NCBI GenBank assembly: GCA_016182785.1
Contig: JACPFU010000030.1
Span: 62,001-126,000, forward strand
Length of the DNA: 64,000 nt
DNA from: Lysobacterales bacterium
Lineage (GTDB): Bacteria > Pseudomonadota > Gammaproteobacteria > Xanthomonadales > Ahniellaceae
Direction: 5' to 3'
The notes below the pieces were generated by a model. That model was not told the origin of the DNA. It saw nothing but the letters and a program-made list of their open reading frames with translations, and ran no database searches. Position numbers and translations under genes: made by a program. This document shows, piece by piece, positions 7,170 through 62,784 of this stretch (its first letter is position 1; the number at the start of each line of letters is the position of its first letter).

Positions 7170-10100
7170 GGCGACAGTTTCGCATCGAGGTCGAGCAGCT
7201 CGCGCAGCCATCGCGCATGCGCGAGCAGCGCCCTTGCCTCCGGGCGATCGGTATCGGCGGGATCGACGCCACGCGCGAGCAGCGCGGCGTACCCCGGCGC
7301 GTAGTCGCGTTCGCCGATGTGGTATCGGTCCGAGGCCCAGGCCTCGTGCATGGCGGCGAACGTCTGCTCGTCGCTGCTCGTCGCCGCAGCCCACGCCGTC
7401 TTCGGCAGGTAGCGCAGCGGGTCGGTTTCGGCTCCTTGCCAGAACTCGACCAGCCGGGACAGGCGCGCGCCCAGGTCCGCTTGCCGCGAGCCGATGTCGA
7501 ATGCGTTCAGCAGCTCGTCGAAGCGCCGCGCTTCCTTCGGGTCGGGCGTGGTCAGCAGGCACACGCGCAGCGGCTGCTGCGGATAGGCCAGGCGCAGCAG
7601 CGCCCACTCGATGAACACCGGAATGCGCTGCTGGAACCCGAGTGCGGCCAGCCGCTTGCCCGGGAATGCGTCGAACAGCAGCCAGCCCTGCGCATCGTGG
7701 TGCACGCGCGTCACGCTGCCGACGATGCGCCGCGCGCCGAGCGCCAGATCAATCGCGATCGGCTGGCGCGGCGGCAGTCCGCGTGCGAGTCGCGGGTCTT
7801 CCGCTGCCGCCTGCAACAGCGGATCGACCGACTTCGCGACGGCGCGATAGGCCTGCATGCCGAGCGCTCCGGCCGGCAGTCGCCCGGACAGACGCAGCCA
7901 CGCGGGCGGCGCCGGCGGCAGTGCCGACGCGCCCTGCGCGAGCGCGTCGAGCAGCAGTTGCCGGGGCAGGCGTTCGCGCGGATCGGGCTTCAGCTCGAGC
8001 GGTTCGCAGGCGGCGCTGCGATCCTCCTCCAGCGCATCGAGCCGCAGCCGCAGACGATCGCGCAGCAGGTGCGCGGCCGGGTCGCGGTAGTAGCGCAACA
8101 GGTGCGCGAGTGACAGCGGGGTGGCATCGGGCGTCGGCGCAGCCAGCGCTGCGCCGGCAACGAAACGTTCGCCGGTATCGGCATCGGCGTCGCTGGCGGC
8201 GGCCACCATCGCCGCGAATTCGCGACTGAAGCTCGCCAGGCGCGGATCGCGGCCGTCGAAGCAGCGCGCGTCGAACGGCTGCAGCGGATGCCGCACGAAC
8301 CACGGTCGACCGGCATCAAGGTGCGTGTCCAGGTACGCCATCAGCTCCGCCAGCGGCGCCGCCGGGCTGCGCGCGCGTCCATCCTGGGCGCCTTCGTGGT
8401 GGTAGCTCAGGTGCAGGCGACGGCGCGCCGCCATCAGCGTTTCCAGGAACAGGTAGCGGTCGTCGTTGCGCGTGTCGCGGTCGCCGATGCGGGGATGGCG
8501 CGCGATCAAGTCGAGACCATCCTCGCTGCCGCCGCGCGGGAAATCGCCCTCGTTCAGACCGAGCACGGCGATCATCGCGAACGGGATCGAGCGCTGCGGC
8601 ACCATGCCGCAGAAGGTGATGCCGCCGAGCAGGAACGGCTGCTGCTCGGGCACGCGCGCCAGCGCCTCGTCGACCAGCGCGCAGACCGTGGCATGGGCCA
8701 GTTCGGGATCGTGCCCGCTGACGCGGAACTGCTCGTGCAGCGCGCGGATCGCGGCGCGCAGGCTGGCCATCGCGGCGCTGGCGTCGGCGTCGTCGGGGTC
8801 GCTCATGAACAGGCCGTCGAGCAGGGACTCCATGCGTGCGCACCACTGCGAGCCGCGCAGGCCGGTGCTCGCGGCCTCGCACCAGTCGGCGATCGCGGCG
8901 AGCAGGCGATCGAGCGCGCCGAGCGCCGTCACCGCCACGCCCTGCACGCCGGCGACCGGCCAGAGCCCGGTCTGTGCCGCCACCGTGGTCGCCGACTCGT
9001 CACCGTAGACGTGCCCGGCGACGAGCCGGGCCAGGCCCCAGGCGAAGCTGTGCTCGGCATAGGCGGGCAGGCCAAGCTGCGCGCGCGCGCTCGCATCGAG
9101 GCCCCAGGCGACGCGGGCATCGTCGAGCCAGCGGCGCAGCGCATCGAGGCCTTCATCGTCGATGCCGAGCGCGCGCCGGATCGCGTCGCATTGCAGCAGG
9201 TCCAGCAGCTGCGACGTCTCGATGCGCGTGCGCGGCAACTGCAGCAGCGCGAGGAAGGCGTCGCACAGCGGATGCGCGCGCCGCAGCGCGAGATCGGCGC
9301 AGTGATAGGGCAGCTCGGCGCGGGCATCGCCGGCGGCGCCGAAGATCGCCGGCAGCAGCGGCGCGTAGGCGTGGATGTCGGGTGCCATCACCGCGATGTC
9401 GCCGGGCTTCAGCTGCGGGTCGGCGGCGAGCGCATCGAGCACGGCATCGCGCAGCACTTCCAGCTCGCGCACGCGGGTGTGGCAGCCATGCACGCGCAGG
9501 CTGGCATCGGCCAGCGCATCGGCGACCGCTGGCGGTGGCGAGCCCGGCTGCAGTCGCCGGATCCCCTGCTGCAGCCAGGCCAGCAATCCGCTGCCTTCGG
9601 GCGGGTCGTGCTCGTCCTCGCCGGCGCGCACGTCGGCGACGACGGCGCCGGCCTGATCGAGCAGGCTCAGCCCGAAATGCTGGCCGATGCGACCCCAGGC
9701 CGCGAGCAGCGGATGCCCGAGCGACTGCAGCTCGCGCTCGGCTTCGTCGCCACTGCCAAGCTGCTGCAAGCGCTGCAGGCGCGACTCCTGCCGGCCGAGG
9801 CCAGCCCAGTATTCGACGCAGGGATCGGGGAAATACAGGCACACCAGCCGATGGCGCGCCTCCGCACACAGCACCGCGAATTCGCTTGCAGGCAGGTGGC
9901 TCAGGCCGAACACATGCAGTGGCGGCGGCGGATCGAGTTCGCGCGTCGCCGCGTGCCGTGCCGCGGCCAGCCGCTGCAACAGGACGCCGCGATGTTCGCC
10001 CGCGAGTGCGGCACGCACGCGCCGCCACAGTGGACCCAGAACATGCCGCGCCGGCACGCTGTCGCGGCCCTGCTCCCAGGCGGCCAGCCAGTCCGCGCGA

Positions 10101-10558
10101 TAGACCAGACAGCGCGCATAGACCGCGGCGATGCGGTCGGCGAGCTGGAAGCGGCGATGCGCGTCGGCACCCGCCAGATAGCGTTGCAGGCCCGGCTCGT
10201 CGCTGCCATCGAGCGCCGCCAGCACCGCCCAGCGCAGCACTTCGCGGCGAAACGGCGACTGCGTGGGTGCGCTGGCGCCGAGCCGCGCGCGCGCTTCCGC
10301 GTCGAGCCAGCTGCCCGGCAATTGCACATCGAGGTTGGCGACGACGTCGCCAGCGCCGCGGCGTCGCGCCAGTTCGCGCGTCAGCCAGCGCTGGATGCCG
10401 GGATGCGCCGCGAGCACGAGTTGCGGCGCCAGCAGCTCGTCCGGCGGCCAGGCTTCGAGCAGTGCCTCCAATGGTCCGAGCAGGGCTTCGAGCCGGCTCG
10501 CGCGATAGACGCGCAGGCCGCGCAGCATCCCGTCCCGGTCGGCCTTGCCTGAGCCCAT
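7166..10558 (-). CDS. recC: Exodeoxyribonuclease V subunit gamma, RecC
   Basis: RecC holds RecB and RecD together and recognises Chi. The 1130-residue protein keeps the RecC opening (LRVYRASRLEALLGPLEALL) and the helicase-like fold with degenerate ATPase motifs. Typical RecC blocks include WLTREL, GLNEGDFPR and the LSYHHEG element. Three ATGs lie at 10564, 10558 and 10528. The one at 10558 was chosen because AGGTGG ends 6 bases before it, while the same purine run abuts 10564. recC is the first gene of recC-recB-recD, joined by ATGA overlaps. Confidence 0.95.
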   Translation of the reverse strand: MGSGKADRDGMLRGLRVYRASRLEALLGPLEALLEAWPPDELLAPQLVLAAHPGIQRWLTRELARRRGAGDVVANLDVQLPGSWLDAEARARLGASAPTQSPFRREVLRWAVLAALDGSDEPGLQRYLAGADAHRRFQLADRIAAVYARCLVYRADWLAAWEQGRDSVPARHVLGPLWRRVRAALAGEHRGVLLQRLAAARHAATRELDPPPPLHVFGLSHLPASEFAVLCAEARHRLVCLYFPDPCVEYWAGLGRQESRLQRLQQLGSGDEAERELQSLGHPLLAAWGRIGQHFGLSLLDQAGAVVADVRAGEDEHDPPEGSGLLAWLQQGIRRLQPGSPPPAVADALADASLRVHGCHTRVRELEVLRDAVLDALAADPQLKPGDIAVMAPDIHAYAPLLPAIFGAAGDARAELPYHCADLALRRAHPLCDAFLALLQLPRTRIETSQLLDLLQCDAIRRALGIDDEGLDALRRWLDDARVAWGLDASARAQLGLPAYAEHSFAWGLARLVAGHVYGDESATTVAAQTGLWPVAGVQGVAVTALGALDRLLAAIADWCEAASTGLRGSQWCARMESLLDGLFMSDPDDADASAAMASLRAAIRALHEQFRVSGHDPELAHATVCALVDEALARVPEQQPFLLGGITFCGMVPQRSIPFAMIAVLGLNEGDFPRGGSEDGLDLIARHPRIGDRDTRNDDRYLFLETLMAARRRLHLSYHHEGAQDGRARSPAAPLAELMAYLDTHLDAGRPWFVRHPLQPFDARCFDGRDPRLASFSREFAAMVAAASDADADTGERFVAGAALAAPTPDATPLSLAHLLRYYRDPAAHLLRDRLRLRLDALEEDRSAACEPLELKPDPRERLPRQLLLDALAQGASALPPAPPAWLRLSGRLPAGALGMQAYRAVAKSVDPLLQAAAEDPRLARGLPPRQPIAIDLALGARRIVGSVTRVHHDAQGWLLFDAFPGKRLAALGFQQRIPVFIEWALLRLAYPQQPLRVCLLTTPDPKEARRFDELLNAFDIGSRQADLGARLSRLVEFWQGAETDPLRYLPKTAWAAATSSDEQTFAAMHEAWASDRYHIGERDYAPGYAALLARGVDPADTDRPEARALLAHARWLRELLDLDAKLSP

Positions 10559-23525: not shown

Positions 23526-23606
23526 CCGCGACGCGCGGCCCCGTTGCGTTTCGATAGATGGCATGCGACGTTGCCGGTCCGGGGAAAGACAGCGAAGGAC
23601 GGCAGG

Positions 23607-26600
23607 ATGCGCGGTTCCGAGCGAATGGAAGTGCCCTTCCGGCACAGCCTGAGGGCGAAGTTGCTGGTCGGGCTGCTGCTGGCATTGGCGACGATGCTGG
23701 CGGCGGTACTGGTGGTGTTCTACCTGCGCGGCTACGAGCTGCTGATGGCGCGCGAGCGCGCGGTCGCGACCAACGCCGCACAGCGCCTGGCCAGCGAGAT
23801 GGGCAAGCAGCTGGCAATGGCCGAGGGTCTTGCCGTCGCGCTCGAGAACCTCGGCGAACACCTGCCGCACGACGCGGCGATGTGGCGCACGATCATCCCG
23901 CACGTGCTCGACCTCGATGGCCGCGGCGAACTGATCGCCGGCGGTGGCCTGTGGCCCGAGCCCGGCGCGTTCGAGCCCGGCGTCGCGCGCCGCAGCTTCT
24001 TCTGGGGTCGCGACAGCGGCGGCGTGCTGCGCTACTTCGACGACTACAACGCACCCGACGGGCCCGGCTACCACGGCGAGGAATGGTACGTGCCGGCGCG
24101 GCACCAGCGGGACGGACGCTGCTACTGGTCGCGTTCGTACCAGGACCCCTACAGCGGCGAGCCGATGGTCACCTGCACTGCGCCGATGCGCGTCGCCGGC
24201 GCCTTCGTCGGGGTCAGCACCGTCGACCTCAAGCTCTCCGGGCTGCAGCGCTTCCTCGACGCGCGCGGCCAGGGCCTGCCCGGCTACGCCTTCCTGATCG
24301 ACCGCAATGGCGTGTTCATCACGGTGCCGCCGGTACGCCGCGTGCGCCTGTCGGCCGAAGCGGTGCCGCAGCCGAAGACGAGCGTGCTCGGCATCGCCGA
24401 CTTCGCCGAGCACCACGGCGACTTCGCCGCGTTGGCGGCGTTCCTGCGCGTGGACGCGGGGGCGGACGTCGACGCGCAGCAGTCCGGGCTGGCGGCGCGC
24501 ATCGATGCCGCCACCGCCACCATCGACGCCGCCGAGGCCGGACGCATCGCGGCGCAGCTGCTCGACGATCCCGCGGCCGAGGTGGCGACGCGGCAATTGC
24601 AGCTGGCGCGCGATCCGTTCCTGCAGGAGGCCGGACTGGTCACTGCACTGCGGTTGCCCGGGGTGCACTGGCAGCTGGTGACGGTGCAGCCGGCACGCCT
24701 GGTGCACGAGGCGGTGATGTCGGTGATGACGCGGGTGGCGTGGGCGCTCGGGCTCGCGATCGTGCTCGCGGTGCTCGCCGCTGGCTGGTTGCTGCGACGC
24801 ACGCTGGTGCTGCCGATCCGGCGCATCATCGAGCAGATGGCCGCGACCGAACACGCCATCGTCCCCGGGCGCGTCGAGGTGCAGGGCCACGACGAGCTGG
24901 CGGTGCTGGCCGAGCGCTTCAACAACTACGCCGAGCGCATCGCCGAGAGCCACGCCGACCTGCTCGCCTCGGCCGAGCAATTCCGTGCCGTGACCGAACT
25001 CGCGCATGACGCGCTGATCCAGATCGGCGACGACGGCCGCATCATCAGCGTCAACCGCGCCGGCGAGCAGATGTTCGGCTGGACCGAAGCCGAACTGCGC
25101 GAGAGCGAGTTCAAGCGGCTGATGGCCTGGGACCCGCGCGCCGAACTGCCCGCAGAGCAAGCCGGTGCGGGCGCCGACGCCAGCCGTGCCGCCAGTCGCA
25201 TGCTCGAGCTGAGCGCGGTGCGCCGCGACGGCCGCGTGTTCCCGGCCGAGGTCTCGGTCAGCTACTGGCGCGGCCCGAGCTACGGCCTCTACAACGTGCA
25301 GGTGCGCGACGTCACCGAGCGCCAGCGCGCCGAGGAACGCGTGCGCATGCTGGCCACGCACGACACCCTCACCGGCCTGCCGAACCGCACCCTGTTCAAC
25401 GACCGCCTGAAGCGCGCAGTCGAACGTTGCCTGCTCGGCAATTCGGGCATGGCGCTGCTGTTCCTCGACCTCGACCACTTCAAGATCGCCAACGACAGCC
25501 TCGGCCACAGCGTCGGCGACGCGCTGCTGCGCGCGGTCGCGCAGCGCCTGCTCGACTGCATCCGGCCCGGCGACACCGTTGCCCGCCTCGGTGGTGACGA
25601 GTTCGCGATGCTGATGCCGAACCTCGACGACCCCGGTCCCGCGGCGCTGATGGCGCAACGCCTGATCGACGCGATCGGGGTGCCGTTCGACCTCGCCGGC
25701 CAGCGCGTGCAGGTTGGCGTCAGCGTCGGCGTCACGCTGTGCCCGGGCGACGACCGCAACGCCGACCAGTTGCTGCGCAAGGCCGACCTGGCCATGTACC
25801 ACGCCAAGTCCGAGGGCCGGAACACCTTCCGCTTCTTCACCGACCGCCTGCACGCCGAGCTGATCGAACGCAAGGCCATGCTCGACGAGCTGGCGCAGGC
25901 GTTGCCGCGCAATCAGTTCGAGCTGCACTACCAGCCGGTGCTGGAGACGCGCACACGTGCGCTGCACGGCTTTGAGGCGCTGATCCGCTGGCGCCATCCC
26001 AGCCTCGGCCTGGTCACGCCCGAGCGCTTCGTGCCGCTGGCCGAGCAGAGCGGGCTGATCGTGCCGATCGGGCACTGGATCATCGCCCAGGCGATGTTCG
26101 ACCTGGCCGCGCTCGATGCCGCCGCCGCCGAGACCCCGGTCCGTCTTGCGATCAACCTGTCGCTGGCGCAGTTTCGCGACCCCGGGCTGGTTGAGGGTTT
26201 GCGCCGCGCGATTGCGAAGTCCGGCATCGACGCGACCCGCATCGAGCTGGAGCTGACCGAAACCGTGCTGATGCACGACCTCGACTCGGCGATCGAGATC
26301 ATGCAGCAGCTGCGCGAACTCGGCATCGGGCTCGCGATCGACGACTTCGGCACCGGCTATTCGTCGCTGTCGTACCTGAAGCGTTTCCCGGTGCAAAAGC
26401 TCAAGATCGACAAGAGCTTCGTGCGCGGCGTCGCCGACGACGCCGACGCCGCCGCGATCTGCCGCTCGGTGATCGCGCTCGGCCACAACCTCGGCCTGCG
26501 CCTGGTCGGCGAAGGCGTCGAGCAGCAGACCGACCTGGACTGGCTGCAACAGCACCACTGCGACTACCTGCAGGGATATCTGATCAGCACCCCGCTACCA

Positions 26601-26657
26601 CTCCCGCAACTCCTCGACTGGGCCGCCGGTTACCGGCCTGGCGGCGGCAACGCCTGA
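23607..26657 (+). CDS. Membrane-bound PAS-GGDEF-EAL cyclic-di-GMP enzyme
   Basis: The 1016-residue protein has an N-terminal transmembrane helix, a periplasmic Cache-like sensor (about residues 45-360), a second helix, a HAMP segment and a PAS domain (about 450-560). A GGDEF domain follows with GGDEF at residue 662 and an RPGD inhibitory I-site five residues before it. The EAL domain has EAL at 790 and the metal/catalytic blocks ELTET, IDDFGTGYSSL, KIDKSFV and GEGVEQ. Both catalytic sites look intact, so it may make and break c-di-GMP. The ATG at 23607 has AAGGA upstream. Confidence 0.9.
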   Translation: MRGSERMEVPFRHSLRAKLLVGLLLALATMLAAVLVVFYLRGYELLMARERAVATNAAQRLASEMGKQLAMAEGLAVALENLGEHLPHDAAMWRTIIPHVLDLDGRGELIAGGGLWPEPGAFEPGVARRSFFWGRDSGGVLRYFDDYNAPDGPGYHGEEWYVPARHQRDGRCYWSRSYQDPYSGEPMVTCTAPMRVAGAFVGVSTVDLKLSGLQRFLDARGQGLPGYAFLIDRNGVFITVPPVRRVRLSAEAVPQPKTSVLGIADFAEHHGDFAALAAFLRVDAGADVDAQQSGLAARIDAATATIDAAEAGRIAAQLLDDPAAEVATRQLQLARDPFLQEAGLVTALRLPGVHWQLVTVQPARLVHEAVMSVMTRVAWALGLAIVLAVLAAGWLLRRTLVLPIRRIIEQMAATEHAIVPGRVEVQGHDELAVLAERFNNYAERIAESHADLLASAEQFRAVTELAHDALIQIGDDGRIISVNRAGEQMFGWTEAELRESEFKRLMAWDPRAELPAEQAGAGADASRAASRMLELSAVRRDGRVFPAEVSVSYWRGPSYGLYNVQVRDVTERQRAEERVRMLATHDTLTGLPNRTLFNDRLKRAVERCLLGNSGMALLFLDLDHFKIANDSLGHSVGDALLRAVAQRLLDCIRPGDTVARLGGDEFAMLMPNLDDPGPAALMAQRLIDAIGVPFDLAGQRVQVGVSVGVTLCPGDDRNADQLLRKADLAMYHAKSEGRNTFRFFTDRLHAELIERKAMLDELAQALPRNQFELHYQPVLETRTRALHGFEALIRWRHPSLGLVTPERFVPLAEQSGLIVPIGHWIIAQAMFDLAALDAAAAETPVRLAINLSLAQFRDPGLVEGLRRAIAKSGIDATRIELELTETVLMHDLDSAIEIMQQLRELGIGLAIDDFGTGYSSLSYLKRFPVQKLKIDKSFVRGVADDADAAAICRSVIALGHNLGLRLVGEGVEQQTDLDWLQQHHCDYLQGYLISTPLPLPQLLDWAAGYRPGGGNA

Positions 26658-26678: not shown

Positions 26679-27008
26679 CTAGAACCCGCCGATCAGGCCG
26701 AAGCAGGCGCCGTTGACGAGCATGGCGATGCCGGCGCTGATCCAGAGTCCGAGGGCGGTGTCGTGGCGGCCGCGGCGGTGCAGCCAGATGCCGGCGGGGA
26801 TCACGAACAGCCACTGGCTGGCGCCGAACAGGATCCACACGCCAAGGCCGGCATAGCCGTAGTCGGGCTTGATCTGTGCGCCGATGACGGCGACGGCGAA
26901 GCCGAGCGCGGCCACGAGCGCAAGGCAGCCGACTTCCCAGACAATGCCCATGGCCCAGTTGCCGCGATCGGTGTTGTGCGAGGTCGGTGGCGGCGCGGCA
27001 GTGTTCAT
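26679..27008 (-). CDS. Small three-helix membrane protein, last gene of the TMEM43-Lgt-radical SAM operon
   Basis: The 109-residue protein has a short Pro/Thr-rich N terminus and three hydrophobic stretches (about residues 20-41, 49-70 and 84-105). A basic loop WLHRRGRHD lies between helices two and three. Its ATG overlaps the stop of the radical SAM gene by 4 bp, so it is translationally coupled and probably acts with that operon. I do not recognise the family. Confidence 0.65.
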   Translation of the reverse strand: MNTAAPPPTSHNTDRGNWAMGIVWEVGCLALVAALGFAVAVIGAQIKPDYGYAGLGVWILFGASQWLFVIPAGIWLHRRGRHDTALGLWISAGIAMLVNGACFGLIGGF

Positions 27009-28447
27009 CGGCTGGTTTCCTCGGCACGGGGCTGCGCCCACGCGCGATCATGGCGCTCGCGCAACGACTGCAGCAAGTCGCGGCGGTCGTCGCGATAGAA
27101 CAGGTTGTAGGTGTCGAAAGGGATCAGTTCGCCATTTGGCTGGGCGATCTGCACGCAGCTCTTCTTCACCGCGCGCAGGTCGAAGCTGTGGGCGTCGAGG
27201 AACTGCATGATGATGATGCGGAACACGTCGCGGTAGCCGAGGTCGGGCACGGTCTCGACCTGCGGCAGGCAGCACAGCAGGCTGGCCAGATGCTGCGCGC
27301 TCGCGGCCGGTGAATTCGCGGTCGAGAACAGCTTGAACACCAGCTCGCGCAGGGCCGGGTCGCGCTCCACCGCGATCGAGTTGCGGCTGCCCTCGATCAG
27401 CACGCGCGGCTCGACATGGCGCGTCAGCGGCACCAGTTCGCCGCCCTGCTTCAGCGCATAGGCCATTGCCAGGCAGTCGGGATTGCACGGCACCGGCACC
27501 AGATCGGCGGCGCTGAACACCGGAGACTGCTCCAGGATGCGCCGGCGCACTTCGGTCAGCGTCAGCCGGTGCCGCGCCGGGTCGTAGCCTTCGATGCGAC
27601 CCGCCGCCTGCACCGGCTGGAAGGTCACGCCGCGCACGCTCGGGCGCGACTTCGCGAAGTCGATGATGGCGCCGAGCTCGTCGTCGTTGACGCCGCGCAT
27701 CACCGTCACCACCAGTGTTGTCGAAAGGTCGTGGGCGTCGAGCGCATCGAGCGCGCGCATGCGGGTCTCGCGCAGCTTCGCGCCGCGCAGCGTCTCCAGC
27801 GCGCCCTCGCGCAGCGAGTCGAACTGCAGGTACACCTCGAAGCCCTTGCGGTACTCGGCCAGCCGGCGCACGAACTCGGGCTCGCGCGCGATGCGCAGGC
27901 CGTTGGTGTTCAGCATCAGGTGCCGGATCGGGCGCCGCCGCGCCGCGTCGAGAACCTCGAAGAACTGCGGATGCAGGGTCGGTTCGCCGCCGGAGAGCTG
28001 CACCACGTCGGGCTCGCCCTCGGTCTTCACCACCGCGTCGAGCATGCGCTCGATCGTCTCCAGATCGCGAAAGCCGGGCCGGTGCGGGCCGGAGTCGGCG
28101 TAGCAGATCGGGCAGCGCAGGTTGCAGTGGTCGGTCAGTTCGATCAGCGACAGGCAGGCATGCTGCATGTGTTCCGGGCACAGGCCGCAGTCGTAGGGGC
28201 AACCGAAACGCTGCGGCGTGGCGAAGTGGCGCGGCAGTTCCGGCGGCTTGATCCAGCTCTCGCGCGCGGCGCGGTAGTAGGCGGCATCGTCGGCGATCAG
28301 CACGCGTTCGCGGCCGTGCTCGGGGCACCACTTCTCCAGGTACACGCAGTCGTCCTGGATCAGGATCTTGGCTTCGACGCGCATCAGGCAACTGCTGCAC
28401 ACCGACACGGCGTAGTCGTAGAACAGGTAGGGGCGGACCTTGCTCAT
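27005..28447 (-). CDS. Radical SAM protein of the Tes/MJ0619 type
   Basis: The 480-residue protein has the radical SAM cluster motif CNLRCPIC (Cys108, 112, 115). Before it come a CSSC (17, 20), CPEHG (Cys41) and GCPYDCGLCPEHMQHAC (Cys83-98). This N-terminal cysteine pattern matches archaeal MJ0619 and the tetraether lipid synthase Tes, which use auxiliary clusters to couple unactivated carbons. More cysteines (CNPDC, LLCC, KKSC) follow. Its neighbours encode an Lgt homologue and a TMEM43 protein with 4-bp overlaps. A lipid substrate is an inference from family and context. Confidence 0.8.
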   Translation of the reverse strand: MSKVRPYLFYDYAVSVCSSCLMRVEAKILIQDDCVYLEKWCPEHGRERVLIADDAAYYRAARESWIKPPELPRHFATPQRFGCPYDCGLCPEHMQHACLSLIELTDHCNLRCPICYADSGPHRPGFRDLETIERMLDAVVKTEGEPDVVQLSGGEPTLHPQFFEVLDAARRRPIRHLMLNTNGLRIAREPEFVRRLAEYRKGFEVYLQFDSLREGALETLRGAKLRETRMRALDALDAHDLSTTLVVTVMRGVNDDELGAIIDFAKSRPSVRGVTFQPVQAAGRIEGYDPARHRLTLTEVRRRILEQSPVFSAADLVPVPCNPDCLAMAYALKQGGELVPLTRHVEPRVLIEGSRNSIAVERDPALRELVFKLFSTANSPAASAQHLASLLCCLPQVETVPDLGYRDVFRIIIMQFLDAHSFDLRAVKKSCVQIAQPNGELIPFDTYNLFYRDDRRDLLQSLRERHDRAWAQPRAEETSR

Positions 28448-29178
28448 GGCGGGGCTTCCGGCAACTGGCGCGCGATGCGCGGGATCGACTTGAGGTAGTA
28501 CAGCAGGCCGGCGAGCGCCAGCCACTGCAGGCCCGAGAAGCCGGGCGGATAGCGCAGCGGCGCGGGTTTCAGCGACTCCACGTACAGCCGCCACGCGCAA
28601 TAGCCGAACATCAGCAGCCGGAAGCGATCACCGCGCTCGCGCAGGCGCGGTGCCAGCAGTGCGATCGCGCCACCCCACGCGAGCAGGAACGCGATCTCGT
28701 ACAGCGCGGTCGGGTGTCGCGGCACGCCGTCGCCATAGTCGAATGCGAACGGCGCCGCGGTCGGCAGGCCGGCGGTGTGGTCGGAGACGCCGGCCAGGTG
28801 GCAGCCGATGCGACCGAGCGCGAGCGCGAGCAGGATCGGCCAGACGAACGCATCGCCGGTCGATTCGCGAAGCCCGATGCGCGCCTTGGCGAACTCGACG
28901 CCGGCGACCCCACCGAGCAGGCCGCCGAGGATCGACTTGCCGCGCATCAGGTGCATCGCGCTCGGGAACTCCGCGAACGCGAGTTGCGGGTCCTGCAACC
29001 ACCACGACAGACGCGCGCCGAGTGCAGCGCCCAGGATCGCGCCGGCGAGCAGCGCAAGTTGCGCGCCGCCCGCGAGCGCCGCGGTGGTCGGATAGCGCCG
29101 GCGCTCCCGCAGAAACAGCTGGAAGCCGAGCGCATAGGCGAGCAGCTCGAACAGCAGGTGGACCCGCGCCGGGTTCAC
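28444..29178 (-). CDS. Lgt-like (prolipoprotein diacylglyceryl transferase family) membrane protein
   Basis: The 244-residue polytopic protein has Lgt-family blocks: RGKSILGGLLGG (79-90), GRIGCHLAG (122-130, equivalent to the GRIGNF motif) and RHPTALYE (154-161). It is shorter than canonical Lgt (about 290 aa) and lacks the full GELYG motif, so it is a paralogue rather than the housekeeping enzyme. It may handle phosphatidylglycerol-type lipids. The GTG start at 29178 overlaps the TMEM43 stop (GTGA), and its stop overlaps the radical SAM start (ATGA). Confidence 0.75.
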   Translation of the reverse strand: MNPARVHLLFELLAYALGFQLFLRERRRYPTTAALAGGAQLALLAGAILGAALGARLSWWLQDPQLAFAEFPSAMHLMRGKSILGGLLGGVAGVEFAKARIGLRESTGDAFVWPILLALALGRIGCHLAGVSDHTAGLPTAAPFAFDYGDGVPRHPTALYEIAFLLAWGGAIALLAPRLRERGDRFRLLMFGYCAWRLYVESLKPAPLRYPPGFSGLQWLALAGLLYYLKSIPRIARQLPEAPP

Positions 29179-30371
29179 GCGCCGGGCGGTGGCGGCGGTG
29201 GCGCGGCGGGCGCAGGTGCCGCGGCCACCGGCGCCGACTTGCGACCCATGCGCGACCACACGAACAGCCCGACCACGGCGGCGATGATCGCGAAGCCGAG
29301 CAGCGGCCGATAGAACACCCAGGCGATGCCGATGGTCAGCAGCGACAGCAGCAGCGAAATCAAGCCAGTGACCAGGCCGATGCCCCAGCTGCCGATGGTG
29401 CCGAGCATCGGCAGCACGTCGAGCACGCGGCTGATCGGTGCGAACACCATCGACAGGCCGATCCACATCAGCAGGGTGCCACCGGCACGCACCAACCACG
29501 TGATCAGGCTGTTGCGGGCCTGCGCGCCCTCGAACATCTGCGCCGCCGGCACCGAGCCGTCCTCGACCAGCAGCACCTCGCGACCGTTCGACGCGACGTA
29601 GCGGTCGAGCAGGCCACCGCTCTGTTTGGCGACGATCGAGAACGTCGCCTCCGGCTGGTACTCGTAGCGGATGCGCATGTCGCCGACCTCGGGCCGTTCG
29701 GGATCGGCGCCGCGGTACAGCGCGCCGTTGGCGAGACGACGGAACTCGCCGAACTGCTCGGGCAGTTGCGCGGTGATCGCCGCCGGCAGGTCCTGCCAGC
29801 GCCCGAGCGCATCGCGCGTCGCCTGCGCCAACACGAACGCGCCGAGCTTCACCTCGTTCGCGGCAAAGCTGTCCGAATGCAGCGGCCACTGGTTCGGGTT
29901 GGCATGGGTCTCGGGCTTCTTGAAGTCGCTGGAATCGATCGGATCGTCGTTCCATTCCTGCTCGTACTCGTACACGGTGACGGTCTCGCTGCCGCCGCCG
30001 AGCTTCTTCTCTTCCTTGCTGCTGCGCTTCTCGACCCACTGGTACATCTCGACCACGCGCCGCAGCTGCAGCGCATCCACGGTGAGCCCGGTGCTGTCGT
30101 CGCGCGCCTGCGGGCTGGCATCGACCTGGCCGGTGACATGCAGCAGCTTGCCCTCGTTCTTCGCCTCGACCGTATCGATGCCGACATCGATCACCGCGCC
30201 CGCACCCTCGGCCAGTGCCCGCGCCTCGCCGATGGCGCGGCCTTCGTTCCACCACAGCAATGCAAACGAGCCGAGGAACAGCAGCCCGCCGATCAGGGCC
30301 CCGGACAGCGACTGCCCGATGCGCTTGCCCCAGCCGGTGCGGGTGACTTCGGTGTAACGGTCGCGTGCCAT
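29175..30371 (-). CDS. TMEM43 family membrane protein
   Basis: The 398-residue protein has one N-terminal helix, a long hydrophilic periplasmic domain (about residues 45-290), then three or four clustered helices and a Pro/Ala-rich tail. This is the topology of TMEM43/LUMA. Conserved features include LLWWNEGRAI after helix 1, YEYEQEWNDDPIDSSDFKK in the domain and a TWLVRAGGTLLMWIG-type segment at the membrane return. Bacterial members have no known function. It is the first gene of a four-gene overlapping operon with Lgt-like and radical SAM proteins. Confidence 0.8.
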   Translation of the reverse strand: MARDRYTEVTRTGWGKRIGQSLSGALIGGLLFLGSFALLWWNEGRAIGEARALAEGAGAVIDVGIDTVEAKNEGKLLHVTGQVDASPQARDDSTGLTVDALQLRRVVEMYQWVEKRSSKEEKKLGGGSETVTVYEYEQEWNDDPIDSSDFKKPETHANPNQWPLHSDSFAANEVKLGAFVLAQATRDALGRWQDLPAAITAQLPEQFGEFRRLANGALYRGADPERPEVGDMRIRYEYQPEATFSIVAKQSGGLLDRYVASNGREVLLVEDGSVPAAQMFEGAQARNSLITWLVRAGGTLLMWIGLSMVFAPISRVLDVLPMLGTIGSWGIGLVTGLISLLLSLLTIGIAWVFYRPLLGFAIIAAVVGLFVWSRMGRKSAPVAAAPAPAAPPPPPPGA

Positions 30372-61777: not shown

Positions 61778-62784
61778 GCCACGCGCCCACGCAGGCGCAG
61801 GCGCGAGACGCCGCCGTCCGGGAAGATGTTGAAGCGCACGTGCGTGACCGGCGTGCGCAGCACGATCTCGTCGCGGTAGTGGTGCTGGTGGTCCATCTGC
61901 AGCTTCTGCTCGGGCAGCAGCAGCGGCCAGAACATCGACTGCGTGACCATCGACTCGGCGGTGCCGCCGGCCGCGCTGGTCGCCTGGAGCGAGCAGCGGT
62001 CCGGGAAGTTGCCCTTGAAGTGGCAGGTGTCGACCTCGATCGCCTCGATCATGCCGGCCTGGCCGAGCGCGAGGATGCACCAGTCGTTGCCGGGCTCGCG
62101 CCGACGTCGCGTCTCCCAGCCATCGCCCATGTTCACGCCGCGCCCCGGGATCAGCAGGTTCGACGCGAGACCGAAATGCTGGTTGTTGGCGGCGACGACG
62201 GTGCCGCCGTTCAATGCGGCGACCAAGTCGACCAGGCCATCGGCTTCGGGCACGGCGAGCTTCGGATCGGGCACGCCATAGACGCGCAGGCGCGCCAGGC
62301 CGCCGTCCGGGTACAGGTTCACGCGCAGGTGCGAGACGCGGCACTGGCCGTCGAGCGCGACATAGTGGTGGGCATTGCCGCCGAGGTTCATCGCCGCCAG
62401 CACCGGGAACCACTCAGTGTTCGCATCCGGATCGCCGCCGGCGAGATCGCAGCCTTCGAGGGCAATCGCCGGCGGGTAGTTGCCGGTGAAATGGCTGGTG
62501 TCGAGGTCGACGCCGCGGATCACCCCGGGCCGCGCCAGGCGCACGATGCACCAGTCATGCCCGGCCACGCGCTTGCGCCGGCTTTCCCAGCCGTCCATCC
62601 ACTTGCCGTTGCTGTCGTACTTGCCGGGAACGAACACCGCCGGCTCCGGATTGAGCATGCGCCCCATCTCGGCGAAGAAGTCGTCGCTGCAACTGAGCGC
62701 CTTCGCACCCAGGCGCGCATCGGCGAGGTTGACGTAGCGGCGGGTGAAATCGGGAGCGTTCGGATCGAGTTGCGGCAGGGCCAT
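61774..62784 (-). CDS. alc: Allantoicase
   Basis: Allantoicase hydrolyses allantoate to ureidoglycolate and urea. The 336-residue protein is built of two homologous jelly-roll halves, seen as repeated [19 protein letters not shown] / [19 protein letters not shown] and [12 protein letters not shown] / [12 protein letters not shown]. The opening [14 protein letters not shown] and length fit the family. It is the first gene of an alc-allA unit. Confidence 0.95.

Follow-up and report, generated by a model that had tools for sequence, protein, structure and literature searches.

The families of Lgt (prolipoprotein diacylglyceryl transferase) and Tes (tetraether synthase, a radical S-adenosylmethionine [SAM] enzyme), both of which act on phospholipids (PMC4728403, PMC9433317), are the parents of two adjacent genes that we analyzed in a 64,000-nt stretch of DNA from a Lysobacterales bacterium (GenBank assembly GCA_016182785.1, contig JACPFU010000030.1, forward-strand positions 62,001 to 126,000), hereafter called the window (contig C11 of genome G000 in our numbering). 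The active site of Lgt lies on the periplasmic side, and His103 of the Escherichia coli enzyme is essential, with none of five H103 substitutions complementing (PMC4728403). For Tes, rubredoxin-type ligands have been assigned, and Met439 has been named as the labile fourth ligand (PMC9433317). Bacterial Tes homologues of unassigned function have been noted earlier, and they serve in surveys as hints of producers of branched glycerol dialkyl glycerol tetraethers (brGDGTs) (PMC9433317, PMC8941075, PMC11868695). A further system that bears on this locus is MYXO-CTERM/myxosortase, in which an invariant Cys by a transmembrane (TM) helix is thought to be lipidated by an unidentified enzyme suspected to be Lgt or Lgt-like (PMC11980579).

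In the window, four open reading frames on the minus strand encode, in this order, a TMEM43-family protein, an Lgt-like integral membrane protein (P0002), a Tes-like radical SAM protein (P0003), and a small membrane protein (P0004) (Table 1). The original prediction took them for a single operon, which our analysis supports, and both the frames and the three 4-nt overlaps were verified: GTGA at 29178-29175 between TMEM43 and the Lgt-like gene, ATGA at 28447-28444 between the Lgt-like and radical SAM genes, and ATGA at 27008-27005 between the radical SAM and small-protein genes. As detailed below, genome comparisons show that the last three genes encode a conserved three-part module, and we tentatively propose that it places a lipid on the small protein. 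The novelty is the system, as its two enzymes belong to recognized folds. A literature search that reached few subscription papers found no description of the Lgt-like/radical SAM/small-protein set, and a search for TMEM43 with radical SAM found none of that combination either, as the prediction had supposed.

An Lgt-like/Radical SAM Gene Pair Is Widely Conserved

Scanning one genome per species yielded 80 loci with related radical SAM genes, which span at least eight phyla (Pseudomonadota, Acidobacteriota, Bacteroidota, Bacillota, Planctomycetota, Cyanobacteriota, Elusimicrobiota, and Myxococcota). An Lgt-like gene was found at 69 of them, upstream on the same strand in 66 cases and with touching open frames in 45. 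At 7 of the 11 loci without one, the radical SAM frame starts less than 470 nt from a contig edge. We searched 10 of these 11 genomes in full. When the radical SAM protein retains a CysCys pair described below, five of six genomes carry a strong Lgt-like match elsewhere (197 to 317 bits), while none of the four genomes in which a methyltransferase gene accompanies the radical SAM gene has a match above 117 bits, which is about the canonical range.

The reverse test gave a concordant picture. Among 274 gammaproteobacterial genomes, all seven of the strongest Lgt-like matches (175 to 298 bits, the window's own included) adjoin a radical SAM gene, as opposed to none of the 21 canonical Lgt loci examined in this set; two matches of intermediate score (L211 and L212) have no radical SAM gene within 1.5 kb. 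The module is thus sparse within groups (7/274) yet spread over many phyla. With the small protein recurring beside the pair across phyla, three of the four genes are associated beyond chance. The predicted co-occurrence therefore holds for the pair and, at most pair loci, for the small protein, but not for TMEM43 (see below); the worry that these genes are rarely neighbors elsewhere falls away for the Lgt-like/radical SAM pair because it is widely conserved.

A Small Membrane Protein with a Conserved Cysteine Accompanies the Pair

Most pairs lie beside a gene for a protein of 50 to 165 residues with one to four TM helices, which is barely alignable between lineages; P0004 and nine counterparts matched no Pfam family above cut-off. 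A strict filter for small TM frames with a Cys motif retrieved one at 52 of the 69 pair loci, compared to 4 of 129 control windows on the same loci and 0 of 4 methyltransferase-linked loci. Of the 48 loci at which a small TM frame adjoins the radical SAM gene downstream, 41 carry a Cys 5 to 15 residues before the C-terminus (about 8 to 9 would be expected from composition), and these 41 share a hydrophobic stretch followed by [I/L/V]-[mostly G]-x-[G/A/S/T]-x-C. The small gene is upstream of the pair or between its genes in Burkholderiales and some Acidobacteriota, where the Cys closes the first TM helix. Distant clades also have such a protein, for example 'LVLGACLLGAR' in L179 and 'LLFMTCMGIIALAN' in L183. 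The original prediction had missed this conserved Cys.

In 72 proteins, Lys and Arg flank the Cys helix on its N-side, against 5 with these residues on its C-side and 8 ties (the N-side stretch of P0004 is HRRGRHD). Following the positive-inside rule, the Cys end of the helix is therefore predicted to be periplasmic, the side on which Lgt has its active site (PMC4728403). Several loci have tandem copies of the small gene (three each in L064, L066, and L088, two in L106 to L108, and several in L036), as would be expected of substrates. In L036, a Holophagae metagenome-assembled genome (MAG), the tandem small Cys-TM proteins follow the radical SAM gene (7964-10239).

Two described classes of proteins, known or thought to be lipidated, resemble the small protein in part. 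Like MYXO-CTERM proteins, it has an invariant Cys beside a TM helix; however, the order in MYXO-CTERM is Cys, helix, and arginine cluster, with cleavage by a CPBP protease, whereas in the small protein Lys/Arg come first, the Cys is at the predicted periplasmic helix end, and a short tail or a second helix lies beyond it. No conserved protease was found at the small-protein loci, the search covering these loci and not the rest of the genome. As in substrates of the Lgt-Lsp-Lnt lipobox pathway, small residues precede a Cys that closes a hydrophobic helix at its predicted periplasmic end. In contrast to lipoproteins, the small proteins with a C-terminal Cys have no expected signal-peptide cleavage, and their motif is hydrophobic-G-x-[G/A/S]-x-C instead of L-[A/S]-[G/A]-C.

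P0002 Has an Lgt Fold with an Altered Active Site

The AlphaFold model of P0002 (predicted local distance difference test [pLDDT] 93.7) aligned by VIA-align to E. coli Lgt (5azb) with a Z of 13.0 over 226 residues, the next best fold reaching 7.4. Foldseek alone listed no Lgt for this model, and a PDB sequence search with P0002 returned only spurious superoxide dismutase matches. Its score against TIGR00544 is 23.3 bits, below the cut-off of 118.9. Because another contig of the same genome (C17) encodes a canonical Lgt, at 232 bits, the P0002 gene is a paralogue.

We compared 68 Lgt-like sequences to E. coli Lgt, with residue roles from PMC4728403. P0002 shares with Lgt the PF01790 fold, the equivalents of the phosphatidylglycerol-site residues R143, Y235 (Y193 in P0002, 68/68), and R239, and a carboxylate at the E243 position, which is Glu or Asp in relatives. 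It differs from Lgt by the loss of His103 of the HGGL motif, by a Cys in place of Asn146, and by new Glu95 and Lys98, each present in 68/68; Lys98 also holds in distant clades, and Glu95 is near-invariant. Since none of the five H103 substitutions complements in E. coli, P0002 is not a standard prolipoprotein transferase. Canonical Lgt identity was rejected on this loss and on the low score, which means that the original description of an Lgt-like gene stands for the fold but not, judging by these residues, for a functional prolipoprotein Lgt.

P0003 Belongs to a Clade Distinct from Tes

The best solved relative of P0003 is MJ0619/GDGT-MAS (7tol), with a phmmer E of 4.5e-61 over residues 13-457, and P0003 also matches the MJ0619 N-terminal zinc ribbon (PF23545, E 1.1e-16). 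The AlphaFold model (pLDDT 86) aligned to 7tom with a VIA-align Z of 47.5 and 2.7 Å over 408 residues, the next-best fold being MoaA (Z 19.9). The prediction that P0003 would fall with Tes/MJ0619 rather than among the cofactor maturases was therefore borne out by sequence search, fold, and the tree described below. Nevertheless, P0003 scored 260 bits against the Tes model NF045702, short of its cut-off of 450. Its best NCBIfam match is the radical SAM (seleno)protein TrsS (NF045646), at 329 bits over residues 14-453, also below the cut-off (490); a methyltransferase partner, as for TrsS, occurs only in a side branch of the clade and in distant relatives.

In Acidobacteria, true Tes scored 472 to 619 bits against the Tes model, a third group about 310 to 350, and the P0003 family about 200 to 270, with most family matches stopping near model position 315. 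A single Bryobacterales genome holds both a true Tes (573 bits) and a family member (221 bits), which indicates that their roles probably differ. In a maximum-likelihood tree of 76 sequences, a branch with 100/99 support parts Tes, together with the third acidobacterial group, from all sequences linked to Lgt-like genes. The family of the window (F) forms one clade (100/100), and the Lgt-linked clade is sister to the Tes clade in the rooting used. The internal order of the distant groups is unsure because long branches join some of them, and the tree is without true TrsS because none above cut-off was found in the one phylum searched. The third acidobacterial group (L114 and L160 to L163, frames of about 695 to 863 residues) keeps the Tes C-terminal cysteines, and its N-terminal cluster ligands are missing.

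A comparison of 86 family members to 29 Tes sequences located the difference. The rubredoxin-type site, the N-terminal [4Fe-4S] ligands, and the radical SAM motif are shared, as is the overall fold. In contrast, three C-terminal Cys that are invariant in 29/29 Tes (358, 475, and 490 in 7tol chain numbering, minus 20 for MJ0619 numbering) are replaced in the family by Ala/Cys/Ser, Ser/Thr, and Glu/Asp, respectively. From their conservation and position, these three are probable [Fe4S4]C ligands of Tes. The family has invariant Cys of its own, as well as Lgt-like and small Cys-TM gene neighbors. The separate clade, the score, and the three lost Cys led us to reject P0003 as a Tes orthologue; what stands of the predicted Tes-like identity is the Tes/MJ0619 fold.

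A C392-C393 pair, located where the model has low confidence (residues 373-401), is missing from four members (L089, L093, L096, and L104), and these are exactly the ones with a methyltransferase gene and no Lgt-like gene. As far as these alignments go, the CysCys pair is a feature that goes with the Lgt-like partner. The methyltransferase-linked variant comprises this side branch of clade F, whose members also have no small Cys-TM protein, and two distant relatives (L172 and L173, from a Mycolicibacterium and a haloarchaeal plasmid), likewise without an Lgt-like gene. No methyltransferase is found among the genes adjoining the radical SAM gene in the window.

Table 1. Coordinates of the genes and of key residues at the locus
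Feature	Position in window	Strand	Remark
P0001, TMEM43-family protein, 398 residues	29175..30371	-	PF07787, E 8.9e-76
P0002, Lgt-like integral membrane protein, 244 residues, GTG start	28444..29178	-	LGT PF01790, E 3e-17
L84, at Lgt His103 (HGGL) position	28927..28929	-	Ile/Leu/Val/Met/Ala in relatives; no His among aligned
R123, Lgt Arg143 (phosphatidylglycerol site), kept	28810..28812	-	68/68; Lys in distant elusimicrobial group
C126, replaces Lgt Asn146	28801..28803	-	68/68; distant clades too
R197, Lgt Arg239, kept	28588..28590	-	68/68; invariant in 49 rows
P0003, Tes-like radical SAM protein, clade F, 480 residues	27005..28447	-	Radical_SAM PF04055, E 2.7e-26
Rubredoxin-type ligands C17, C20, C41, H44 (C-X2-C-X20-C-X2-H)	28316..28399	-	85/86 family, 28/29 Tes, remainder gaps
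N-terminal [4Fe-4S] ligands C83, C87, C90, H93	28169..28201	-	85/86 family, 29/29 Tes
Radical SAM CX3CX2C, C108-C112-C115	28103..28126	-	Conserved in family (85-86/86) and Tes
C321, family-invariant, near lost Tes C-terminal ligand	27485..27487	-	86/86 family
C392-C393 pair	27269..27274	-	82/86; missing from four methyltransferase-linked members
C431, family-invariant, one residue past a Tes-invariant Cys position	27155..27157	-	86/86 family
D445 (Glu/Asp throughout family), where Tes has invariant Cys	27113..27115	-	Alignment
P0004, small membrane protein, 109 residues; proposed substrate or partner	26679..27008	-	ATGA overlap with radical SAM gene
Cys102 of P0004 (codon TGC), 8th residue from C-terminus, in ...GLWISAGIAMLVNGACFGLIGGF	26703..26705	-	Position kept in counterparts

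Proposed Function and Alternatives

Our preferred reading, which we put forward tentatively and at somewhat less than even confidence, is that genes 2 to 4 encode an undescribed three-component system that would put a lipid on a Cys-bearing small membrane protein, by a chemistry that we infer. The small protein would be inserted with its Cys at the periplasmic end of the TM helix. The Lgt-like enzyme would then move a diacylglyceryl-type lipid from phosphatidylglycerol (PG) to this Cys, with an altered mechanism or acceptor geometry. The cytosolic radical SAM protein, with a rebuilt C-terminal metal/thiol site, might perform radical chemistry on the acyl chains of the lipid donor, forming C-C or C-S bonds, or else act on the small protein before its insertion. 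Of the earlier idea that the operon builds or attaches a modified lipid, what reads most naturally is a role in lipid attachment, while its membrane-spanning version is weakened because the Tes C-terminal cysteines are lost and a true Tes coexists with the family in one genome. Such a system would supply a candidate enzyme type for the lipidation of membrane cysteines that are not in a canonical lipobox, a question still to be answered for sorting signals such as MYXO-CTERM (PMC11980579). With the small membrane protein and its single conserved Cys named as a likely substrate, function is directly testable by mass spectrometry.

Several points weigh against this proposal. Because the essential His103 is absent, the Lgt-like enzyme may transfer no diacylglyceryl at all. 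The motif of the small protein is lipobox-like but no lipobox, the radical SAM protein is cytosolic while the Cys is predicted to be periplasmic, and the role of the small protein could be that of an assembly subunit rather than of a substrate. In addition, 17 of the 69 pair loci have no small protein by the strict filter (visual inspection recovered some ten of them), and the exact filter figures are weakened because the filter was designed after data inspection, although the controls used the same filter.

A more specific version of the lipidation proposal is possible but on balance unlikely: the Lgt paralogue would lipidate the in-membrane Cys, and the radical SAM enzyme would weld carbons of the lipid tails together or to the protein, giving a cross-linked lipid anchor. 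We know of no covalently cross-linked lipid anchor of this kind.

Among the alternatives, the one that survives best, which we still judge unlikely, is that the radical SAM enzyme couples phospholipid acyl chains as Tes does, the Lgt-like protein presenting PG or moving diacylglyceryl on a free lipid and the small protein being an accessory. The Tes fold is shared over 401 to 408 residues, the similarity to MJ0619 runs full length, and a part in making brGDGTs has been proposed for bacterial homologues of Tes (PMC8941075, PMC10087280). However, the family stands in a clade apart from both archaeal and acidobacterial Tes, the three lost Cys belong to the C-terminal site at which Tes forms its intermediate, both types of protein coexist in the Bryobacterales genome, and this reading leaves the small protein's conserved Cys unexplained. 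Tetraether synthesis is therefore disfavored. Since the lost C-terminal cysteines and the Lgt-like partner set a large and widespread clade apart from true Tes, brGDGT surveys could exclude it.

It is improbable that the system performs a maturation akin to that of ribosomally synthesized and post-translationally modified peptides (RiPPs), with the radical SAM enzyme crosslinking the small protein at or near its Cys in the cytosol (e.g., by C-S or C-C bonds) and the Lgt-like protein processing or anchoring the product. Small, divergent, tandem proteins beside a radical SAM gene do resemble precursor arrays, and the family-specific invariant Cys of the enzyme would suit such a role, but the nearest characterized relative works on lipids and not peptides (PMC9433317), family scans found no RiPP recognition element or SPASM domain, and the prediction puts the Cys on the far side, where the helix ends in the periplasm.

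Invariant Cys occur in all three parts (C126 in P0002; C321, C392, C393, and C431 in P0003; and the small-protein Cys), which, together with the loss of His103, would fit a metal centre ligated by these Cys or a thiol relay that delivers electrons to the radical SAM enzyme, with the Lgt-like protein acting as a noncatalytic PG-binding scaffold and the small protein as a structural component. We regard this as quite improbable, since the small-protein Cys is predicted to be periplasmic, remote from a cytosolic radical SAM enzyme, and since the retention of R143, Y235, and R239 throughout the 68 sequences suggests continued catalysis.

That all four genes including TMEM43 form a functional unit, as the original prediction held, is barely credible despite the common strand and the GTGA overlap: TMEM43 is beside 0 of the 80 related radical SAM loci, only 1 of 20 TMEM43 loci in relatives adjoins an Lgt-like/radical SAM system, namely the window itself, and in G004 a 72%-identical system sits more than 4 Mb (contig coordinates) from the TMEM43 gene of that genome. 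The TMEM43/Lgt-like junction was seen in the window's genome alone among the genomes examined. By these gene neighborhoods, TMEM43 is an incidental local neighbor and no conserved part of the system; the four-gene set is refuted as a conserved unit, and a local role in this genome is possible. The genome also has a second, more distant TMEM43 gene with a longer open frame (G000:C22:1762-2538).

Variants in Distant Lineages and Neighboring Genes

Lgt-like genes likewise adjoin the more distant radical SAM relatives that occur in Elusimicrobiota, in actinobacteria, and in the order to which the window belongs. Plasmids of Mycobacterium avium (H8, NZ_CP076860.1:187612-188811) and Mycobacterium branderi (L174) carry such relatives, and at the M. 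branderi locus an Lgt-like gene and a small Cys-TM protein lie beside it. In the sister radical SAM clade (L176, L178, and L179), an upstream multi-TM protein of 113 to 121 residues joins the set, and L179 also has ferritin-like and fatty-acid-hydroxylase-like genes, as judged by eye. The full set with two small Cys-TM proteins is found in L105, from a MAG labeled Pacearchaeota, which is probably a mis-binned bacterial contig or else a transfer.

In two Elusimicrobiota loci (L166:3633-4286 and L168:3612-4286), the gene after the Lgt-like one resembles a relative of isoprenylcysteine carboxyl methyltransferase (LARHPMYAS, by eye); such a neighbor would fit a lipidated cysteine. Finally, the gene facing the small-protein gene in the window encodes a GGDEF/EAL-type protein on the plus strand (23544-26657), in convergent orientation, and stops 22 nt from it.

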